In this document: piece after piece, positions 53,616 through 64,000 of the stretch
Position numbering within the stretch: position 1 is the stretch's first letter
Layout of the letters: each line of letters opens with the position of its first letter
The notes under the pieces: generated by a model
The model's input: the letters and a program-made list of their open reading frames with translations, nothing else
The model's database searches: none
Told to the model about the DNA's origin: nothing
Program-made: the position numbers and the translations under genes
Assembly: GCA_002551355.1 (NCBI GenBank)
Contig: NTHE01000005.1
Location: 62,001-126,000 of the forward strand
DNA length: 64,000 nt
Source: Streptomyces sp. man185
Lineage (GTDB): Bacteria; Actinomycetota; Actinomycetes; Streptomycetales; Streptomycetaceae
Direction of reading: 5' to 3'

Positions 53616-53804
53616 CTATTTCCTCCCCCGCACACCAGCGACGAAACCGGTCCAGGCCGCATGGCCGACGGTTATACGAGGACCCTCGGGCCTCGTCGAG
53701 TCGCGTACTCCCACGGTCGCGGACAGGTCGGCGACCTCCACGCACTCCGTTCCGGTGCCCCCGCTGTACGACGACTTGAACCAATGACCGACGCGGTGAA
53801 CCAT
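53616..53804 (-). CDS. DUF397 domain protein
   Basis: 62 aa. WFKSSYSGGTGTECVEVADLSATVGVRDSTRPEGP then AWTGFVAGVR is a textbook DUF397 peptide (SSYSxxxGxxCVEVA). Its ATG overlaps the stop of the upstream XRE gene (TGATG), so the two are translationally coupled, as in whiJ loci. GGGAG lies 5 nt upstream. Confidence 0.93.
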   Translation of the reverse strand: MVHRVGHWFKSSYSGGTGTECVEVADLSATVGVRDSTRPEGPRITVGHAAWTGFVAGVRGRK

Positions 53805-54649
53805 CAAATCTCCCTGCTCACTTGATTCAGGAGCACGGCAGACCGCTCGATGTTCAGGGCCTGCGCACGCAGATAATTGAACGCCAACTTATAGCGTGAC
53901 AGTTCCTGGGGCTTCTCCATGAAGAGGCCGCCTCCGATGATGTCCACGTACACGACGTCGAGCTCGGGCGTCCGGCCGCCGAGCACGACGAAGCTGCCCA
54001 CTGCCGCCGCGTGGGCGCCGGTCTCGAACGGCAGGATCTGCACGGTGACATGAGGGCGTCGGGCCTGTTCGAGCAGATGGCGCAGCTGTGCTCGCATGGT
54101 CTCGCTTCCGCCCACGACGCGGCGGATCACCGCCTCGTCGACCACCGCCCAGATGTGGGGTGGCTCGGGTCGTTCGAGCAGCTCCTGCCGCTTCATGCGG
54201 ATGTCCACCATGTGCTCGATCTCCTGGTCCGAGCACCGCATCTCGGAGGCACGGTGTACGGCTTCGGCGTAGGCGCGCGTCTGGAGCAGCCCGGGGACGT
54301 ACATGCAGGCGTAGTGGTCCTCGCTGACCACTTCGTCCTCCAGGGTCAACATGAGGTTCATGGACTCGGGGATGGGGTCCGCGAGCGAGCGCCACCATCC
54401 CTGGATGCGTGCGCCCTTGGCCAGCTCGACGAGTGAGGAGCGTTCGTCGTCCGTGGTGCCGTACTCGCGGCACAGGGCGTCCACGGCCGGCCACTTGACC
54501 GTGCCTTCCTTCCGCTCGTAGCGGCTCAGGGTCGCTTTGGAGATGCCGACCAGCGCCCCCGCCTCCTCCAGGGTGAGGCCCTTGCGCTCACGCAGGCGGC
54601 GCAGGTCGGCACCGAGTTGGCGCCTGCGGGTGGTGGGTCCGACTGTCAT
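53804..54649 (-). CDS. XRE-family regulator with DUF5753 sensor domain (WhiJ paralogue)
   Basis: 281 aa. N-terminal helix-turn-helix (LRERKGLTLEEAGALVGISKATLSRYERKEG, about 18-50) and DUF5753 (YVPGLLQTRAYAEAVHRAS, HVTVQILPFETGAHAAAVGSFVVLGG, VYVDIIGGGLFMEKPQELSRY). Coupled to the DUF397 gene and divergent from an HATPase gene: the three-gene whiJ-type arrangement. Confidence 0.93.
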   Translation of the reverse strand: MTVGPTTRRRQLGADLRRLRERKGLTLEEAGALVGISKATLSRYERKEGTVKWPAVDALCREYGTTDDERSSLVELAKGARIQGWWRSLADPIPESMNLMLTLEDEVVSEDHYACMYVPGLLQTRAYAEAVHRASEMRCSDQEIEHMVDIRMKRQELLERPEPPHIWAVVDEAVIRRVVGGSETMRAQLRHLLEQARRPHVTVQILPFETGAHAAAVGSFVVLGGRTPELDVVYVDIIGGGLFMEKPQELSRYKLAFNYLRAQALNIERSAVLLNQVSREI

Positions 54650-54844
54650 GGCTGTGGTTCCTCACGTTGACGCTTCAGAGCGTGCACGGCTGATCGTTGT
54701 ACGGGCAAGTGGGCGTGCGCGGGGGGCGTGCGGCATAGCGGCGGGCTCCCGAGAGTCGTTGGTGAGAGTTTCAAAATGAGAGTTCCAATGACACTCTTCT
54801 CTTACGCGTGGTCACGTTTGGTGATCGCGAGTCTGCTGGGAGCG

Positions 54845-55510
54845 GTGATCGACATGGACGGCTGTCGTTTCGGTGTGGTGCGCAAGGCCTGGGAGATGCC
54901 ATTCCTGGCGGAGCCGGCGGGGTTGGCAGGGCTGAGAAACGCCGTCAGGTTTCGGCTGGACCTCTGGGGGCTGGCCGACATCGCCCCCGATGCTCAGCTC
55001 TGCGCTTCGGAGTTGGCGGCGAACGTGTTCAAACACGTGGGGCCGGGCACGTGTGCACGCCTCGCCGTGTCCATGAACGGTGGTCGCCTGCGTATCGAGG
55101 TGAGCGACCCGGACGCGCGGGGCGTTCCCGTCCTCGCCACGCGAGAGGACGGGGAGGAGCACGGGCGCGGATTGGTTCTCGTGGACGCTCTCGCCGATCG
55201 CTGGGGTGTCATCCTCCGGGCCGACTCGAAGGCCACCTGGTGCGAGCTGGTCACCGGGTTGCGGTCGTCGGTCGACCACATGGACGGACCCCAGGTTGCG
55301 AGGGCCGAAGCCTTGCTCGGTCTGCTCGGAGTTTCCGGGCGGGACAAGGGCGTTGAGCGGGGACCGCTGACCGTGGCGCACGCGGAGGAGTCGGCCATCG
55401 ATGTGATCGCCGACCTCCTCCACTGGCTTCGGGCCCACGGGTGCGATCCGGACGGGGCCCTGGACCGCGCGCAGGCGCACTTCGAGACGGAATTGACCGA
55501 AGCCGCGTGA
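54845..55510 (+). CDS. HATPase_c ATP-binding protein (anti-sigma-factor-like)
   Basis: 221 aa from the GTG at 54845 (ATG at 54854 equally possible). Upstream in-frame codons are rich in AGA, ACA, TCA and TTG and are unlikely to be translated. GHKL features: N-box LCASELAANVFKHVG, G1 box LRIEVSDPDARGVPV, G2 box EHGRGLVLVDALADRWGV. This is the RsbW/AbaA-like group that pairs with WhiJ regulators. A C-terminal helical extension (IDVIADLLHWLRAHGCDPDG) is unusual for the group. It ends 8 bp from the convergent drmB stop. Confidence 0.85.
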   Translation: MIDMDGCRFGVVRKAWEMPFLAEPAGLAGLRNAVRFRLDLWGLADIAPDAQLCASELAANVFKHVGPGTCARLAVSMNGGRLRIEVSDPDARGVPVLATREDGEEHGRGLVLVDALADRWGVILRADSKATWCELVTGLRSSVDHMDGPQVARAEALLGLLGVSGRDKGVERGPLTVAHAEESAIDVIADLLHWLRAHGCDPDGALDRAQAHFETELTEAA

Positions 55511-55518
55511 CCGCGGGC

Positions 55519-57363
55519 TCAGTGGTTCAGTACGTCGCTGAAGAATCCGATGGACGGATTCTCCGGCGTGCCGACGAGGAGAGCGCGGTCGAGCAGACCG
55601 TTGTTGTGCTCGCAACTCGTCTCCGGCAGCAGCACGCAAGCATGGCAAGCCGCCATGTTGATCCCGCCGACGCCGCTTCCTTCCGACTCGACGCAGAGAG
55701 GATCCGCGGAACACCAACGCGCCCTGTCCAAAGCCGAATCAAGGGTCCTTCGGAGGCGGTTTGGCTCGCCCTGCGCGACCAGGCCCCCCAGGCTGCCCGC
55801 GGAGTCGCTCGTCGCGGTGCAGATGAGGATGCCCGCCATGGTGTCGCTCGTGTAGAGCCGCTCCCGCAGGGACGCCGCGGGGTAGCCCCCGTCCAGACTC
55901 CACTCATTGATCAGCGAGTGCGCCAGAGTGTGGAGCAGGACCATGCGGGGGGAGGCCGGCGAGTCGGGCACGCTGTCCGGGTCCTGGGCACGTTCGTGCA
56001 TCATCCGGGTGTGGTTGGTCCGTATGCGATCGGCACGCGCCGCCACGGCGACGCTCCGGGCCCAGGCGTCCAGCCGCTCCTCGTCGAGTCGGAAGAAGAC
56101 GCCCTCGCCCTGGACCTCCATCGCGGGCAGCCAGTCGAGTTCCTTGAGGGACAGGGCTGCCTCGTGGACGTCCGCGCGGGTGTCCGGGGTGTCGACCCGG
56201 GAGAACGCCTTCAGTGCACGCACTTCCCGCAGCCGCTTCACCAGCATCGGACCCGTGACCCCGTACGGTGTCAGCACGGTCGAGGAGGAATGGGGAGGTT
56301 CACAGACGAACCGGTCATCGTGGCCGGTCCCCTTCTCTGGCTGCCCCGCGATCAGCCGGTCGTACTCCTGTTTCCGCAGCGCGATGAAGGCACTGTCCAC
56401 GGAGGCGTCGCCGTCGGCGTCCGTGTCCTCCTGGTTCTCCGCTTCGAGCAGGGCGATGACCCTGTCGGCCGAGAACTCGTACGGCTTCGTCAGTGTGAGG
56501 GCCTTGAGAAAGCCTCGGATGCCGCGCTCGTCGCCCTCCTCGTACATCTTGCGCAGGTCGTCCATGTGGTCTTCGAGCCGAGTGAAATGCTCGTCGCTCC
56601 ACGGGGGGATCGACAACGCCGTCCGCACGATCGGCTGCCAGGCGACGGACGAACCGCGCTGCAGCGTGCGCGGCCTCTCTGAGCAGTGATCGGTCGGCGC
56701 GTCCTTCAACCAGGGGCGCTTGCCGCTGCAGAACACCTTCAGGTCCGACAGAGCCGTTCCGCTGAACGCGCCTTCCATCGACACCTCGGGCACTCCGCAG
56801 GTGCAGGAGATCAGGACCGACCGGAGGGAGGCGGTCTTTCCGCTCGTGCGCAGCCGCATCGTTCCGCCGCAGAGACCAGTCTCGCCCTCCTGCCGGTTCT
56901 TGCGGTGCACCCACTTCCAGTACGGGAAGTCGTCGATGTGGCCCTTCGCGCAGGCCATGACGAAGCGCGAGGGAACGAGGTCCTCTTCGCAGTCACCGCA
57001 TTCGTTCCTCCCCGGAGGGGAGTTGAACTGTCTAACGTGCTGGAGGGTGTGGCACTCCGGGCAGGAATGCCACAGAGGGAATCGGCGGACGTGCACGCCG
57101 TCCTTGCTTGTGTCGTCCGATGCCGGTGGGAGGCGGAACGACTTCACCCCGAGAACCCGGGCCAATCGGTGCTCGTGGATGGTCGGTGCCTCGCTGATGT
57201 TCCAGGAGTCGGTTCCGGCCACTATGAACGACTCGTTGTCCACAGCGACCATGGATCCGACGCCGTACGTCGTGATCATCTGGGCGCGCCGGACGGAACC
57301 GCGGCGGGGATAGCTGCGCTCCGGCGCTCCGGTCCGGCGGCGTCGGGCGGGGGGCGGGGTCAT
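55519..57363 (-). CDS. drmB: DrmB-like DUF1998 protein (DISARM-related)
   Basis: 614 aa; the ATG at 57363 overlaps the drmA stop (ATGA). The N-terminus RRGSVRRAQMITTYGVGSMVAVDN is the DrmB opening motif. Zinc-ribbon cysteines follow (CPECHTLQHV, CGDCEEDL). The C-terminal DUF1998 domain shows LLHTLAHSLINEWSL, GILICTATSDSAGSLGGLV and the cysteine cluster CHACVLLPETSCEHNNGLLDRALL. In DISARM, DrmB binds DrmA and forms the DNA-translocating DrmAB core. No drmC follows; the next gene is convergent. Confidence 0.9.
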   Translation of the reverse strand: MTPPPARRRRTGAPERSYPRRGSVRRAQMITTYGVGSMVAVDNESFIVAGTDSWNISEAPTIHEHRLARVLGVKSFRLPPASDDTSKDGVHVRRFPLWHSCPECHTLQHVRQFNSPPGRNECGDCEEDLVPSRFVMACAKGHIDDFPYWKWVHRKNRQEGETGLCGGTMRLRTSGKTASLRSVLISCTCGVPEVSMEGAFSGTALSDLKVFCSGKRPWLKDAPTDHCSERPRTLQRGSSVAWQPIVRTALSIPPWSDEHFTRLEDHMDDLRKMYEEGDERGIRGFLKALTLTKPYEFSADRVIALLEAENQEDTDADGDASVDSAFIALRKQEYDRLIAGQPEKGTGHDDRFVCEPPHSSSTVLTPYGVTGPMLVKRLREVRALKAFSRVDTPDTRADVHEAALSLKELDWLPAMEVQGEGVFFRLDEERLDAWARSVAVAARADRIRTNHTRMMHERAQDPDSVPDSPASPRMVLLHTLAHSLINEWSLDGGYPAASLRERLYTSDTMAGILICTATSDSAGSLGGLVAQGEPNRLRRTLDSALDRARWCSADPLCVESEGSGVGGINMAACHACVLLPETSCEHNNGLLDRALLVGTPENPSIGFFSDVLNH

Positions 57364-60300
57364 CGGGTTGCCTCCATGAACAGACCGGACTCGGCATCGA
57401 CATCGCGCAGACTCCAGAGCGTCTGCCAGGCGTTCTTGTCGGGGTCTTCGTCGTCGAACGTGCACAGCAGCGAGGCTGTCCGCTTGCCTCGCTTCGGCTC
57501 GTAGAGCAGGCCGCCGTGGGATGCCGCCAGATCCGACCACCAATCGACGAACTCGTCGTAGGCGTCTGCCGTCGCCTCGTACTCCTCCTTGTCGATCTTC
57601 CCGACCCGAGCCAGCAGTGTGGTCCGCACGATCCGGTCCAGCTCCCCGCGGAACTCGTCGATCCGTCCCGCACCGTCGTTCGGACGGGCCTCGGGGATCA
57701 TGATCCGGGCGAGCGCGACGACGACGGCGTGCAGGCCCCGCTCGCGGGAGCGGGAGGAGAACGGCGTCACGCTGGTCGACTCCACCTCGCGGTACAGCGC
57801 GGAGTGGTAGTGCTGAAAGCTCTCGTAGTGCGAACGGTCCCTGGACCGCCTCGAGTTGAGCATCACAGTCACCAGGCCGGGGTGGCGGCGGCCCACGCGA
57901 CTGGTCGCCTGGATGTACTCGGCCGTGGTCTGGGGCTGTCCCATGACGGCCATCAGCCCGAGTCGGTCCACGTCGACGCCGACCGAGATCATGTTCGTGG
58001 CGAGGAGAACGTCCACGGCATCGGGGTGCCCCAGCCGCTGCTCCACCTGCTTCAGACGTTTCGGCACCTCGCTGGAGTTGGCGCGGCTCGTCAACTCGGT
58101 CTGTTCCAGGATCTTTCGCCGTGTGTTCCCGTCGCGGTCGGCCAGGTAGCCGAGGTGCGCTTCGACGTCGTCGTGGACCTGCAGCTCGGCAGCGGCCAAC
58201 AGCCTGAGGCTGTTGAAGTATCCGACGAGCGTCCAGTAGGCGTCACGGACCTGTTCGTCGTCCTTGCCCTGTGCGGCCCGGTGGAGCAGGTTGGCATACG
58301 TACGGATGAGCAGCGTGGACTGGCTCGTGCTCGGCGTGAGGAGGCCGACGTACTGCCTGCTCGCCTTGCGTTCCTTGGGGGTTTCCACCGCGAACCACGA
58401 GTCCCTGGCGTCGATGCCCGCCGGCGGGAACTGGGCGACGGCATCGCGGGCGAACAGACTGCGGCCCTGCTCGGAGGCCCGACGGATCGTCGCCGTCGAC
58501 GCGATGATCTTCGGCTCTTCCGCGAGCAGGTCCACCGCCGTCTCGTAGAGCCCGGTGAGTGTTCCGAGCGGCCCCGAGATGAGGTGCAGCTCGTCCTGGA
58601 CGATCAGCTCCGGAGGAGGTGTGTCGTCCTCCCGGTCACGGTTGAACAGTGCCGCGGTCTGTTCGCGCCACGGCATGGCGGCGAACTTGTCGACGGTCGC
58701 GATCACCAGCGTCGGTCGCGCGTCGTAGACGGCCTCGTCGATCAGGTGGACCGGCAGTCCGTCGCGGAAGTCGCACCACGTGTCGGGGCAGCGGACGTGC
58801 ATCCGCTTCGCCTCTTCGTCGACCTCGTACTGGAACGCGTCGATGCGCGTGCCGCACCAGGGGCACGCGTGCAGCTGGACCGGGTTCTTCTCCTGGAGTT
58901 CCTTCTCCTTCCTGAGCTCCACGAGGCTCTCCTCGGCGACCGACAGCTTGTTCGGTGTGGCGGACTGGCCCACCCACATGCCGATGGAGATTGGCTCCGT
59001 CCCCAGTGTCTGTTCGTCACCGAGACGAATGCGCTCCATGGCGCAGATCAGGGATGCGGCACGCTCGAACTGCTGCAGGGTGAGCAGCCGCAGGGTGTAG
59101 CGCATCAACACGGTCACGCCCCCGCCCTGCTCCTTGTGCCGCATACGGCGCAGGAAGGTCGTGAAGGCGATCAGACCGAGATACGCCTCGGTCTTGCCAC
59201 CACCGGTGGGGAACCAGAGAAGGTCGGCGATCTGACGGTCGTCGTGCTTCGGGTCCACGATCCCTTCGAGGCAGAGCAGCACGAAGGAGATCTGGAACGG
59301 TCGCCACCGACTCGCGGACGTATCCGGATCGCCCACCCGGCCGTTCTTCACCCACTCACTGCGGCCCCGCTGCTGGGACATCGCACGGTTGGCGAGACGG
59401 AACGCCCGCATCGCTTCGCTGTCCGTACCGAGGACCCGGATCCCTCGACGCATGCGGGCCAGCGCCGCTCCGCAGTGCTCGATCTGCTTCCGTGCCGGGG
59501 CCTCGTGCGGTGTGCCCCGGAAGGCCTCGGCCTCCGCCTCCTTGCGGTCGATCCACTCCGCGTACCCGGCCATCAGGTCATTGAGAGCGCCAAGTACCTC
59601 GTTCTCGGGGCGGGTCGCCAGGCTCTCCATGGTGAGGGCCGAGTCGTCGATGTCGGGGTTGGAGTCGGTGAGCAGCACATCGTGCGCCGGAACGAACTCG
59701 GTGCGTACGGTGGAGATCGCCGCGCGTTCGATGTTCGGGTCACCGATCGGGGGCGGGGTCCAGTCCCAGTCCGCCGAGCAGCCGTGGCCGACGGCGAAGG
59801 TCGGCGCGTGCCGGTGCAGCAGTCGACTCGTGGCGACCTCCGGGTCGATCACCGTACGCTCGGACGGGCGGTCGACCAGGCCGGGCGCACCGGACTCGGT
59901 GGTCACGGTCAGGCGGGGCTGGTAGAGGCAGAACGCGTCCTGGAGGGCGTACTTGCCCACGCGGTGTGTATTGATCAGCGTGATCGTCACGGTGACCGTG
60001 CCGCTCCCCGGGGCCTTCGGCCGGACGACGACGTCCAACGCCGGGCCTTCGAGCGGATCGTCCGGCGTCCTGTCCTGACGAATGCCGTTCAGCCGATAGC
60101 GACGGGGCACGGTCACATCGACGGTCACGGGGCGCATGGACAGCTCGCGCCGACGCCACCGCTCCTTCTGCTCGGACACCGTCCGGGCCTCGGCCCGCTC
60201 GGCGGCCACCGGGCGCCCCTCGGAGTCGACCGGATCGTACGCCGCGACCTCCGTGTTCACGAGAAGTCGGGGAGCGATTGTCGGGTCCACGGCGAAGGTC

Positions 60301-60620
60301 AGCCCCATGGAGGAGGGGCGTCGGTCGCCGACATGGGCCGTACCGAGTTCTGGCAGCGGATCTTCGATGTCCCGGCCCCTCCGCACGAGCGGAGCGTCGT
60401 CGAGTCCGTCGTTCTCGGCCGCGGCCTCCCGGAGCGCACGCCCGGACTCGGGATCGGAGGCCCTCGGGAACAACACCCCTATCGGGTAGGTGGTGATCGG
60501 CGGATCCTGGGTCAGGACCTCGTCGGTGGAGCCCGGGCCGAGCAGGTCCCTGCGGAGCTGCTCGACGAGACCTTCCCTGAGCGCGTAGTGGGCGGCGTGC
60601 GTGCTGGTCCCGTCAGTCAT
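57360..60620 (-). CDS. drmA: DrmA-like SF2 helicase (DISARM-related)
   Basis: 1086 aa; the ATG at 60620 overlaps the UvrD stop (ATGA). A long N-terminal region without recognised motifs (residues 1-440) precedes the SF2 helicase: Walker A FPTGGGKTEAYLG from residue 470, Walker B variant QDELH with D676, STATIRR, and motif VI QATSRVGRRHPG. A zinc ribbon (CPWCGTRID...CPDTWCDF) is inserted between motifs. The C-terminus carries LLYEPKRGKRTASLLCTF. In DISARM, DrmA is the core helicase that, with DrmB, senses and translocates on phage DNA. Confidence 0.9.
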   Translation of the reverse strand: MTDGTSTHAAHYALREGLVEQLRRDLLGPGSTDEVLTQDPPITTYPIGVLFPRASDPESGRALREAAAENDGLDDAPLVRRGRDIEDPLPELGTAHVGDRRPSSMGLTFAVDPTIAPRLLVNTEVAAYDPVDSEGRPVAAERAEARTVSEQKERWRRRELSMRPVTVDVTVPRRYRLNGIRQDRTPDDPLEGPALDVVVRPKAPGSGTVTVTITLINTHRVGKYALQDAFCLYQPRLTVTTESGAPGLVDRPSERTVIDPEVATSRLLHRHAPTFAVGHGCSADWDWTPPPIGDPNIERAAISTVRTEFVPAHDVLLTDSNPDIDDSALTMESLATRPENEVLGALNDLMAGYAEWIDRKEAEAEAFRGTPHEAPARKQIEHCGAALARMRRGIRVLGTDSEAMRAFRLANRAMSQQRGRSEWVKNGRVGDPDTSASRWRPFQISFVLLCLEGIVDPKHDDRQIADLLWFPTGGGKTEAYLGLIAFTTFLRRMRHKEQGGGVTVLMRYTLRLLTLQQFERAASLICAMERIRLGDEQTLGTEPISIGMWVGQSATPNKLSVAEESLVELRKEKELQEKNPVQLHACPWCGTRIDAFQYEVDEEAKRMHVRCPDTWCDFRDGLPVHLIDEAVYDARPTLVIATVDKFAAMPWREQTAALFNRDREDDTPPPELIVQDELHLISGPLGTLTGLYETAVDLLAEEPKIIASTATIRRASEQGRSLFARDAVAQFPPAGIDARDSWFAVETPKERKASRQYVGLLTPSTSQSTLLIRTYANLLHRAAQGKDDEQVRDAYWTLVGYFNSLRLLAAAELQVHDDVEAHLGYLADRDGNTRRKILEQTELTSRANSSEVPKRLKQVEQRLGHPDAVDVLLATNMISVGVDVDRLGLMAVMGQPQTTAEYIQATSRVGRRHPGLVTVMLNSRRSRDRSHYESFQHYHSALYREVESTSVTPFSSRSRERGLHAVVVALARIMIPEARPNDGAGRIDEFRGELDRIVRTTLLARVGKIDKEEYEATADAYDEFVDWWSDLAASHGGLLYEPKRGKRTASLLCTFDDEDPDKNAWQTLWSLRDVDAESGLFMEATR

Positions 60621-62530
60621 CCGAGGATGCCTTCCTGCGTGTTCCTTGCGGCGCGCCTGTAGCGCCCGAGTCCTGACATGCGGGGCACCGCCCAGATGCC
60701 GTGGTCGCCCAGCCCGGCGCGTGCGCCGGACGCGGTACTGCCCGCGACGCTCTCCAGACAGTCGACCCGGAAGCCGGCGATCTCCACCGGCCAGTTGATC
60801 TCCCACGTCTTGTTGATCTTCAGGGAGGTATGGAGGTCCTTGCGGAACCGCTCCGAGACGACGGAGATCGCCCGATCCCCGTGGAAGACGGTGTACGGAG
60901 GACTCTGGTCGGCGCCCATGGTCATCTCGTGCTGAGGGCGGAGCGTCAGTACGTCACCGGGTGAGACCGACGACGCCAGGTAGTCCTGCACGTCCGCCGC
61001 GTCGTCGAAGAAGCCGACCGTGCCCGGCGGGTGCTCCCGACATACGTCCTGCCCGCCGGCGGCGATGCCGTCCCGGATGTACGGCTTCCACGCGCCGAGG
61101 TACCACCGTTCGGTCACCCGGTCCCGGCGCACGAGTGCTGTGTCCGGTGACGCGATGCGGAACAGATCGTCCCGGGCGCGGGTCATCGCGACGTACAGCG
61201 AACGGGCCTCGGCTGCCGGGTCCACATGGCCGTGCTGCTTGCGCAGTTCCGCGGTGGTGGCCGGTTCGACCACGATGACCCGATCGAACTCGAGCCCCTT
61301 GGCACGGTGCACGGTCGACACCACCAGGTTCGAGGGTTCCACGGCCGCCAAGTCGTCAGGGAAGCGTCCCTCCGCCACCAGGCACCGTACCGCCGAGACA
61401 TCCATCAACCCTCTGGGCGCGCGGGCGGCGCCCCGCAGGGAACGCCAGATCCGCGCATGGTCCCCGACGGGAGCGGTCGGTCCGGTGGCGAGCAGTTCCA
61501 GGAAGCGCTCCTCGGTCAGCGTTGTGCTACCGGTGTGCCTCAGGACAGAGCTGACCCAGGCTGGGACAGGGCGGTCCTGCAACGCGCGCTGGACCCGGTG
61601 CGGCACGCCGAGGGAGAACAGCTTCTCGGACAGCACCAGAGCCTGGCGGTTGTCCCTGCAGAGAATGGCGCAGGTGCCCGGGTAGCCGCGGAGCGACTCG
61701 ACGGTCGACTCCGCCTCCAGAGGACTGAGATCGGGGCACGACCGCAGGAGATCGGTCAGCTGCCGGTGGAACTTCTCGCCCGCCGAATCGGATTCGGCGG
61801 GTTCTGACGGCAGCCTCTTGAGCGCGTCGCCGAGCTTGAGCGCCGTACGTGCCTCCTGGGTCCGGGCCCGGAAGTTGGTGGTGAGGTGCAGCTCGACCAG
61901 ATCGTCCGGGTAGGAGGCCCGCAGCCAGTCGAAGAAGTAGTTGGTCTCTGCGGCACGGGCATCCTGGTCGGAGACCTGGAAGCCGAAGATGGCCTGGGCG
62001 CCATCCCCCACCACAGTGAACCCGCAGTTGTCCTGGAAGCGGTCCAGCAGCGTCTCCACCATGTCCCGGCGGTCACCCACCAGGTCCTGGACCTCGTCGA
62101 TCACCACGTGGGCGGGGGCACCCTGTTCGCTCTCCTCGACCGCGCCCCGGAGAACGGCCTCGGTCGTCTCCCGGATCCGCTCGTCGAAGCGCAGCGCACC
62201 CCAGTCCCGGTCCGGCTGCTCGGCGCGCAGCACCGAATAGGCCCAGGAGTCGAATGTCTGCACCCGGACCCGGCGTGCCTCCCGGGCGTGCAGCGCGATC
62301 CGCTCGCGCAGCTCACGGACTGCCGCGCGCGAGAAACTGAGCACCAGGATCTCGCCCGCCTCCAGCGCGTCGTCCTCGTGTCCCATCAGGGCATCGAGCC
62401 GGCGGACCAGCGTGTGTGTCTTGCCCGCGCCCGCGCCGGCGGTGACCAGCAGCCGGGCGTCCCAGGGCTGCTCGACCACGGCCCGCTGTTCCTCGGTCAA
62501 TTGCGGGCTGTCGTGGTACGCGTCGGTCAC
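60617..62530 (-). CDS. UvrD/Rep-type SF1 helicase
   Basis: 637 aa from the GTG at 62530, which overlaps the stop of the upstream helicase (GTGA); GGAGGG lies 4 nt upstream. A GTG at 62542 is an alternative. Walker A GAGAGKTHT at residues 32-40, VLSFSRAAVRELRERI, Walker B VIDEVQDLVG, VVGDGAQAIFGF, VSTVHRAKGLEFDRVIVVEP and LYVAMTRARDDL. The C-terminal 140 residues after the helicase core (FFDDAADVQDYLASSVSPGD, TWEINWPVEIAGFRVDCLE) are not a PD-(D/E)XK domain that can be recognised. It is coupled to drmA. Confidence 0.92.
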   Translation of the reverse strand: MTDAYHDSPQLTEEQRAVVEQPWDARLLVTAGAGAGKTHTLVRRLDALMGHEDDALEAGEILVLSFSRAAVRELRERIALHAREARRVRVQTFDSWAYSVLRAEQPDRDWGALRFDERIRETTEAVLRGAVEESEQGAPAHVVIDEVQDLVGDRRDMVETLLDRFQDNCGFTVVGDGAQAIFGFQVSDQDARAAETNYFFDWLRASYPDDLVELHLTTNFRARTQEARTALKLGDALKRLPSEPAESDSAGEKFHRQLTDLLRSCPDLSPLEAESTVESLRGYPGTCAILCRDNRQALVLSEKLFSLGVPHRVQRALQDRPVPAWVSSVLRHTGSTTLTEERFLELLATGPTAPVGDHARIWRSLRGAARAPRGLMDVSAVRCLVAEGRFPDDLAAVEPSNLVVSTVHRAKGLEFDRVIVVEPATTAELRKQHGHVDPAAEARSLYVAMTRARDDLFRIASPDTALVRRDRVTERWYLGAWKPYIRDGIAAGGQDVCREHPPGTVGFFDDAADVQDYLASSVSPGDVLTLRPQHEMTMGADQSPPYTVFHGDRAISVVSERFRKDLHTSLKINKTWEINWPVEIAGFRVDCLESVAGSTASGARAGLGDHGIWAVPRMSGLGRYRRAARNTQEGILG

Positions 62531-64000
62531 TTGGCCCTCCACAGGTGCTCGAACTGCGTGAAGGCGAGAGCCTTGCCGTAGTTGGTGATGTTGTCCCGGA
62601 CATTGAGAATCAGGCAGGTCTCCTTGCCTCCGTTTCCGGGACCGCGCAGACCGCGACCGATCATCTGCTGGTAGACATTCGGGCTGTAGGTGGGGCGGGC
62701 GACGACCACGGCCCGGGTGGCCGGAGCATCGAACCCCTGTGTCAGAACACCGTAGTTCGTGAGGACACGCACGCGACCGCGACGGAAGTCGTCGATGCTC
62801 TTCCTGCGCTCGCCCGCCGAGGTGGCCGAGTCCACCGAGGCGGCGGTAATGCCTCGGTCCTTCAGCTTCGCTGCGAGGAACTTGGCATGTGCCACGGAGG
62901 TGGCGAACACCAGGACGGGCCAGTCGGCGGGCATCTCGCCGATCTCCTCCAGAATGCGCTTGTTGCGGTCGTGGTCGTCGGCGAGACGCTGCTCGGCGGC
63001 CTTCGACAGCAGGCTCATCTGGTCGGCCCGCTCCTTCTCGTCGTTGGTCAGCTCGATGGTGCCGCCGAGGAGTTCCCGGTGATCGACCTTGGCCAGCATG
63101 CCGAGTTCCTGCAGTTCCCCGTAGGCGTCACCGTTCGGGAAGACACCGTCGTCGAGGCGCTGGCCACCGAAGCGTTGGACCAGGCGTCGGGTCTCCTCGT
63201 CGTTCGTGTTGCGGAACGGGGTCGCGGTGAGCCCCAGCAGATGGCGCCCGGTCTCCCGTGCCGTCAGGCCGAGTTGTTCGAGGATCTTCGTGTACTGCGG
63301 CGAGATGGCGACATGCGCCTCGTCGACGATGACCAGACTCGCCTGTCGGAGCCAGGCGTATCCCTCGGTGTCGAGGCAGTTGCGGAGCTTCGCGTCCGTC
63401 GCGACCACGAGGTGCGGACGGTCGCTCACGGGACCCGCCTCGTTGGTGGTCCACAGCCTGCTGATGGTGAGGGGGCTCTCCGCGCCGACCTTCGACCAGA
63501 CGAAGCTCCAGCTCTGGACGGCCTGCTCGCAGAGTTCCTCGGTCTGGGCGATCCAGAGGATGGGACCGTCCAGCTCTCCCACGGACTTGACCCAGCGAAT
63601 CACGGCCTCCGCCGCCACCCGGGTTTTGCCCGCGCCGGTGGGCAGCGACAGCATCCCGCGCTGCGGTGCGAACCGGTCGAGCATCGCGAAGACCTTCGCC
63701 GCGAGGCGTTCCTGGTAGTCGTGCAGACGTGGGAACTCGGTGGGGCCGGGGACATCCACCCTCGGAGGCAGCGAAGGCGCCTTGGTTCCGGCGAAGGAGT
63801 CCGGGAAGCCGAAGTCGGCGACGAACCTCACTGCGGGCGATGACCCGGTGAAGCCCGACGGCGCGTGGCTCGGATAGGCGGCCAACAGATCACGCGTGTG
63901 CATCTGGAGGACACCGTCACCGTGGGCGTTGTACGCCATCCGCGCGATCCGGCGGGCCGACGGCTCGACGTCCCCCAACTCCGCGCGCTCGCTCTCCAGG
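62527..64000 (-). CDS. SF2 DEAH-box helicase (N-terminus outside window)
   Basis: Partial; the frame is open to position 64000 (LESERAELGDVEPSARRIAR continues upstream), so the TTG at 63978 is not the true start. Walker A LPTGAGKTRVAAEAV, VIVDEAHVAISPQ, LLGLTATPFRNTNDEE, LVFATSVAHAKFLAAKLKDRG, LTNYGVLTQGFDAPATRAVV and motif VI QMIGRGLRGPGNGG: a ResIII/type-I-restriction-like SF2 helicase of about 490 visible residues. First visible gene of the four-gene operon ending in drmAB. A domain fused to its unseen N-terminus could carry a nuclease. Confidence 0.9.
   Translation of the reverse strand, partial: LESERAELGDVEPSARRIARMAYNAHGDGVLQMHTRDLLAAYPSHAPSGFTGSSPAVRFVADFGFPDSFAGTKAPSLPPRVDVPGPTEFPRLHDYQERLAAKVFAMLDRFAPQRGMLSLPTGAGKTRVAAEAVIRWVKSVGELDGPILWIAQTEELCEQAVQSWSFVWSKVGAESPLTISRLWTTNEAGPVSDRPHLVVATDAKLRNCLDTEGYAWLRQASLVIVDEAHVAISPQYTKILEQLGLTARETGRHLLGLTATPFRNTNDEETRRLVQRFGGQRLDDGVFPNGDAYGELQELGMLAKVDHRELLGGTIELTNDEKERADQMSLLSKAAEQRLADDHDRNKRILEEIGEMPADWPVLVFATSVAHAKFLAAKLKDRGITAASVDSATSAGERRKSIDDFRRGRVRVLTNYGVLTQGFDAPATRAVVVARPTYSPNVYQQMIGRGLRGPGNGGKETCLILNVRDNITNYGKALAFTQFEHLWRAK

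Follow-up and report, generated by a model that had tools for sequence, protein, structure and literature searches.

A four-gene helicase operon encoding DISARM-type DrmA and DrmB, linked to a cytosine methylase module, recurs in Streptomyces and other genera as a likely defense locus

A four-gene helicase operon lies at the end of the window analyzed here, a 64,000-nucleotide stretch of Streptomyces sp. man185 (positions 62001 to 126000 of the 170,342-bp contig C115; genome size, 8.07 Mb). The operon occupies positions 55519 to 64000 on the minus strand. Its first gene, GHKL-SF2 (62527 to 64000 within the window), continues past the window end and is followed by genes for a UvrD-like SF1 helicase (60617 to 62542; 637 to 641 amino acids, with the start at 62530 or 62542), a DrmA-like SF2 helicase (57360 to 60620; 1,086 amino acids), and a DrmB-like protein (55519 to 57363; 614 amino acids) with an MZB/DUF1998 zinc domain at residues 480 to 577. 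An earlier reading of the window made from the sequence alone (the sequence-only reading) described four minus-strand genes joined by GTGA, ATGA, and ATGA overlaps. The coordinates agree: the overlaps fall at 62527 to 62530 (if the UvrD-like gene starts at 62530), 60617 to 60620 (where the DrmA start lies within the UvrD stop), and 57360 to 57363. That reading was also right that drmB is the last gene, with a convergent open reading frame (ORF) that terminates at 55510, leaving 8 bp to the DrmB stop (55519).

DrmA and DrmB both score as DISARM proteins and not as repair-type DUF1998 helicases, in keeping with the labels first given to them. DrmA reached 1015.6 bits against NCBIfam NF038325 (DISARM_DrmAS; cutoff, 950) and matched PADLOC DrmA (3e-254) and the solved DrmA 7s9v_A (4e-169), although the alignment with the latter begins only at its residue 137. 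DrmB reached 485 bits against NF038324 (DrmB_fam; cutoff, 240) and matched PADLOC DrmB (8.7e-72), the solved DrmB 7s9v_B (2.6e-80), and PF09369 (1.7e-07). The UvrD-like helicase matched PF00580 (1.1e-25), PF13361 (1.3e-16), and GajB models (up to 92 bits). The N-terminus of GHKL-SF2, outside the window, is a GHKL/sacsin-type ATPase; the remainder comprises a different region and a ResIII helicase, a motor that scores 107 bits against RadD, far below the cutoff of 720. The suggestion that this unseen N-terminus might hold a nuclease did not survive, since profile searches recognized no nuclease family there.

Two C5-cytosine methylase genes (Dcm1 and Dcm2) and a Vsr gene were found on the contig approximately 10 to 13 kb past the window end. 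Because of this module, the system is not methylase free, and the earlier statement that a methylase is missing holds within the window only. The HTH-GHKL/methylase unit is divergent from the helicase operon, with 593 to 1,344 bp between the starts in 46 loci, and the complete locus contains 12 main genes in three operons. The earlier proposal is supported in its gene order, its DISARM DrmA and DrmB, and the lack of a DrmC match at the locus, but not in its extent. Dcm2 retains the catalytic PPCQ motif and Dcm1 is cysteine-less, forming a pseudo/active pair. The best PADLOC family was type II methylase for Dcm2 (MTase_II, 980 bits, versus 65 for DrmMII) and DruM2 for Dcm1 (306 bits, 8.6e-92, versus 95 for DrmMII). 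Profile matches at the locus included PF00145 (6.4e-42 and 3.9e-24), PF03852 (2.7e-16), and PF10593 (3.1e-53, with DTLMQMGRWFG present in the translation). In profile searches, Vsr was the sole nuclease family recognized in the man185 locus. The F protein is predicted to be a beta-sandwich with helices (model predicted template modeling [pTM] score of only 0.55) and DUF6339 to be all helical; for these two, no restriction endonuclease-fold match was among the PDB matches listed. The PADLOC candidate PDC-M33 gave matches for A (partial, 1.8e-21, residues 108 to 251) and C (1.3e-9) and none for F. Besides content, order, coupling, and motif state, the locus shows purifying selection.

The sequence-only reading had asked whether the gene order recurs elsewhere, and it does. 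Among 295 Streptomyces genomes, 107 had a DrmA match at 1e-50, and 50 of these (man185 included) formed one DrmA group at 55 to 100% identity, the next group being at 42 to 43%. We took 20-kb regions from the other 49 genomes (one region spanned only 5 kb, limited by its contig) and added the upstream flanks of 19, the downstream flanks of 19, and further stretches of four genomes. Genes were counted by tblastn with the man185 proteins as queries, so that each count reflects similarity to one reference protein. As the loci were chosen by DrmA, the presence of the other genes, not that of DrmA, is the finding; the genus-coded genomes may overlap named records. GHKL-SF2, UvrD, DrmA, and DrmB were present in all 49 relatives, in 48 on one stretch with the same order and direction (the G143 locus is divided between two contigs). 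HTH-GHKL, F, and G were found in 47 relatives (missing in G285 and G095), Dcm1 and Dcm2 in 47 each, one or both of these in 48 (all but G095), and Vsr in 39, with some misses in regions that end before the Vsr position. In the stretches covered for G095 (L089, L118, and L138), the operon has no recognizable methylase, Vsr, or HTH-GHKL, making it the sole one of the 49 cases that matches the earlier picture of an operon with no methylase.

The tight coupling seen in man185 recurs in these relatives (one locus each). ATGA, GTGA, or TTGA overlaps occur at 47 of 48 readable first junctions and 44 of 48 second junctions, and the third junction overlaps in 38 of 49, with DrmB starting 1 to 5 bp past the DrmA stop in 9 of the remaining 11. 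The exceptions are mostly starts no more than 5 bp away or genes seemingly broken or matched in pieces. Because they are kept at most junctions across the 49 genomes, the overlaps are not due to chance, and the four genes are one tightly coupled unit. In L045, L046, and L078 the operon genes were matched only piecewise, and two HTH-GHKL copies (G247:C11:214205-216361 and G223:C1:2761913-2764051) contain an in-frame TGA; these are perhaps decaying loci or sequencing errors.

Conservation of the gene order extends beyond Streptomyces to at least eleven further genera. GHKL-SF2 was detected at 1e-100 in 17 of 394 genomes of the class (12 of 137 genera) and at 1e-60 in 5 of 396 genomes of the phylum. 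Six named loci were found with DrmA, five in Streptomyces (the closest in S. durocortorensis, 95% identity) and one in Pseudonocardia lacus (54%). We examined 17 loci: 15 of the class set (13 of them outside the genus, in 12 genomes), G466 from another class, and P. lacus L040. The order GHKL-SF2, UvrD, DrmA, DrmB was observed in 16, the exception being G982, with a NERD-type helicase match at the UvrD position; G564 was uninformative, since little sequence follows GHKL-SF2 on its contig. Of the 13 loci outside the genus, 5 have HTH-GHKL, F, and G adjoining, and 10 have a Dcm and/or Vsr match, some of them weak (47 to 80 bits); no Dcm or Vsr match was found within 20 kb in G851 or at either G926 locus. 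A PPCQ methylase is present in both G466 and P. lacus, and Vsr also in G466.

The absence of drmC, another claim of the sequence-only reading, was borne out. The NF038319 (DrmC_I) profile, the sole DrmC model used, was searched against 60 plus 15 genomes and scored above the cutoff in 6 of the 60 and 6 of the 15, but never at the four-gene locus (by visual comparison of positions). Of the 60, 52 carry the four-gene or linked DrmAB type, and fragmented assemblies could conceal a link. In six of the 12 DrmC-positive genomes, DrmC lies a few kilobases from other DrmA matches (G178, G036, G107, G147, G029 C14, and G073 C919); therefore, the search was able to detect DrmC. The G147 neighborhood, with DrmD (1,355 bits) and DrmMI (1,507 bits), is canonical DISARM, a separate type in the same genus. 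The best NF038319 matches in man185 were 33-bit PLD-type proteins on another contig, and in the 41 loci whose sequence continued for 1.5 kb or more beyond DrmB, no ORF with an HKD-like pattern was seen up to 3 kb from that gene. DrmC encoded elsewhere could act in trans in some carriers. GHKL-SF2 scored 15.2 bits against the DrmD cutoff of 610, and no DrmE was among the PADLOC matches listed for the 12 proteins (the best 25 rows for four of them), with no DrmE model searched separately. Extension past position 64000, proposed as a check for drmC and a DISARM methylase, hence yielded cytosine methylases but no DrmC, and neither DrmMI nor DrmMII was the best family of either Dcm.

The locus is likely a phage or plasmid defense, of a build that the papers searched do not describe. 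Gene content and linkage incline us modestly toward the operon and the cytosine methylase/Vsr/GHKL module acting jointly, as a methylation-guarded defense that would unwind and destroy incoming unmarked DNA. It is possible, but rather doubtful, that two or three independent systems merely share a defense hotspot, a DrmAB-type helicase system standing beside a cytosine restriction-modification system. YidC and/or FAH relatives occur in the upstream flank of 14 of 20 loci, and most copies are therefore at one common chromosomal site; G086 and G136 carry both units although the 11.5 kb examined there lacks these flanking genes. Independence is further opposed by the narrow divergent spacing of the units, by their joint presence in 47 of 49 relatives, by a change of the helicase module beside the core, with a different DrmAB unit occupying the same place in other genomes, and by linkage of a methylase in genomes where the remaining core genes were not detected (G285, G877, G806, G752, G765, and G917). 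We regard as very improbable a DNA repair or recombination unit, in which DrmAB, UvrD, and a RadD-like motor would act on damaged DNA and Vsr and the methylases on mismatches. The RadD match, the status of UvrD and Vsr as repair enzymes, and the stable site of most copies fit such a role, but the patchy distribution (50 of 295 Streptomyces genomes, besides the class-wide counts above), the repeated module changes, the DISARM-level scores, and a RadD score so far below its cutoff do not.

That the locus is ordinary DISARM minus drmC, a standard cytosine methylase serving as DrmMII, seems unlikely. The locus resembles DISARM classes 1 and 2 in its adjacent, overlapping drmA and drmB above the NCBI cutoffs and in the DNA methylase nearby, and class 2 employs a cytosine methylase. 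PMC9142583 assigns cytosine methylation to DrmMII and describes DrmC as seemingly dispensable for DISARM. Against this, the methylases score far better as other families, DrmD scored far below its cutoff, no DrmE was among the matches listed (the best 25 rows for four of the proteins), and canonical DISARM exists separately in the genus. GHKL-SF2 and UvrD-like helicases in a fixed operon order are not known to be DISARM genes either. The locus also differs from DISARM in having a pseudo/active methylase pair plus Vsr in another operon, and a DrmA with no counterpart of the first ~136 residues of the solved protein.

Other known systems match in part. For Mza (MzaABCDE), scores were far below the equivalog cutoffs (MzaB, 123.4 of 850 bits; MzaC, 255.5 of 1,500), and MzaA, MzaD, and MzaE were not among the matches listed for the 12 locus proteins. 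ARMADA, BRIGADE, and TALON (YprA family; preprint PMC12458937) share a YprA/DUF1998-type helicase core, and ARMADA type II includes a GajB-like UvrD helicase. Here, in contrast, two proteins carry the helicase and the DUF1998 part separately, an arrangement shared with DISARM, GHKL-SF2 scored at most 21.8 bits against BrxHI/HII, and no PglX was among the matches listed for the 12 proteins; the text of PMC12458937 does not mention MORC or GHKL. Druantia type II has DruM2, the best family of Dcm1, whereas DrmA matched DruE with just 16 bits over 74 residues, and DruF and DruG were not among the matches listed. GHKL-SF2 residues 10 to 444 matched TmtA of Tiamat (148.7 bits), but the match ends after the GHKL part, before the different region and ResIII helicase, and concerns one gene of four.

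From gene neighborhoods, Iyer et al. (PMC2292703) argued that MORC-type GHKL ATPases make up restriction-modification systems together with SFII helicases, Dcm, and Vsr. They compared these systems with MutL and its partner MutH or Vsr, and with UvrD. For a joint defense, we infer every step of a possible mechanism from content, order, conservation, and module change. Dcm2 would place the mark on host DNA, and Dcm1, which lacks the cysteine, would be its noncatalytic partner. HTH-GHKL, with F and DUF6339, may sense unmarked or invading DNA and control the divergent helicase operon. The GHKL part of GHKL-SF2 might then serve as a MutL-like, ATP-driven DNA clamp whose motor loads the complex, and a nick made by Vsr or a host nuclease would be opened by the UvrD-like helicase. 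In mismatch repair, UvrD acts after MutL/MutH. DrmAB could finally load onto the exposed 5' single strand and finish unwinding, leaving the product to host nucleases. This nick-and-unwind scheme draws on the co-occurrence of GHKL, Vsr, UvrD-like, and DrmAB proteins, on the apparent dispensability of DrmC (PMC9142583), and on the loading of a solved DrmAB relative onto 5' overhangs.

Three minor observations concern neighboring genes. A possible 124-amino-acid gene lies on the operon strand between GHKL-SF2 and HTH-GHKL (L002:17418-17792; contig C115, 129418 to 129792); part of this ORF is kept in 7 other loci, and it could serve as a leader or encode an additional component. In G013 (L094:13052-14314), an MzaA-like protein (PADLOC, 3.8e-26) directly precedes a second-type DrmA-DrmB pair, a further DrmAB combination. 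Within the window, an HTH gene and the convergent ATPase-like gene adjoining DrmB occupy positions 53804 to 55510; of the 20 downstream flanks examined, 10 have a relative of the latter next to DrmB.
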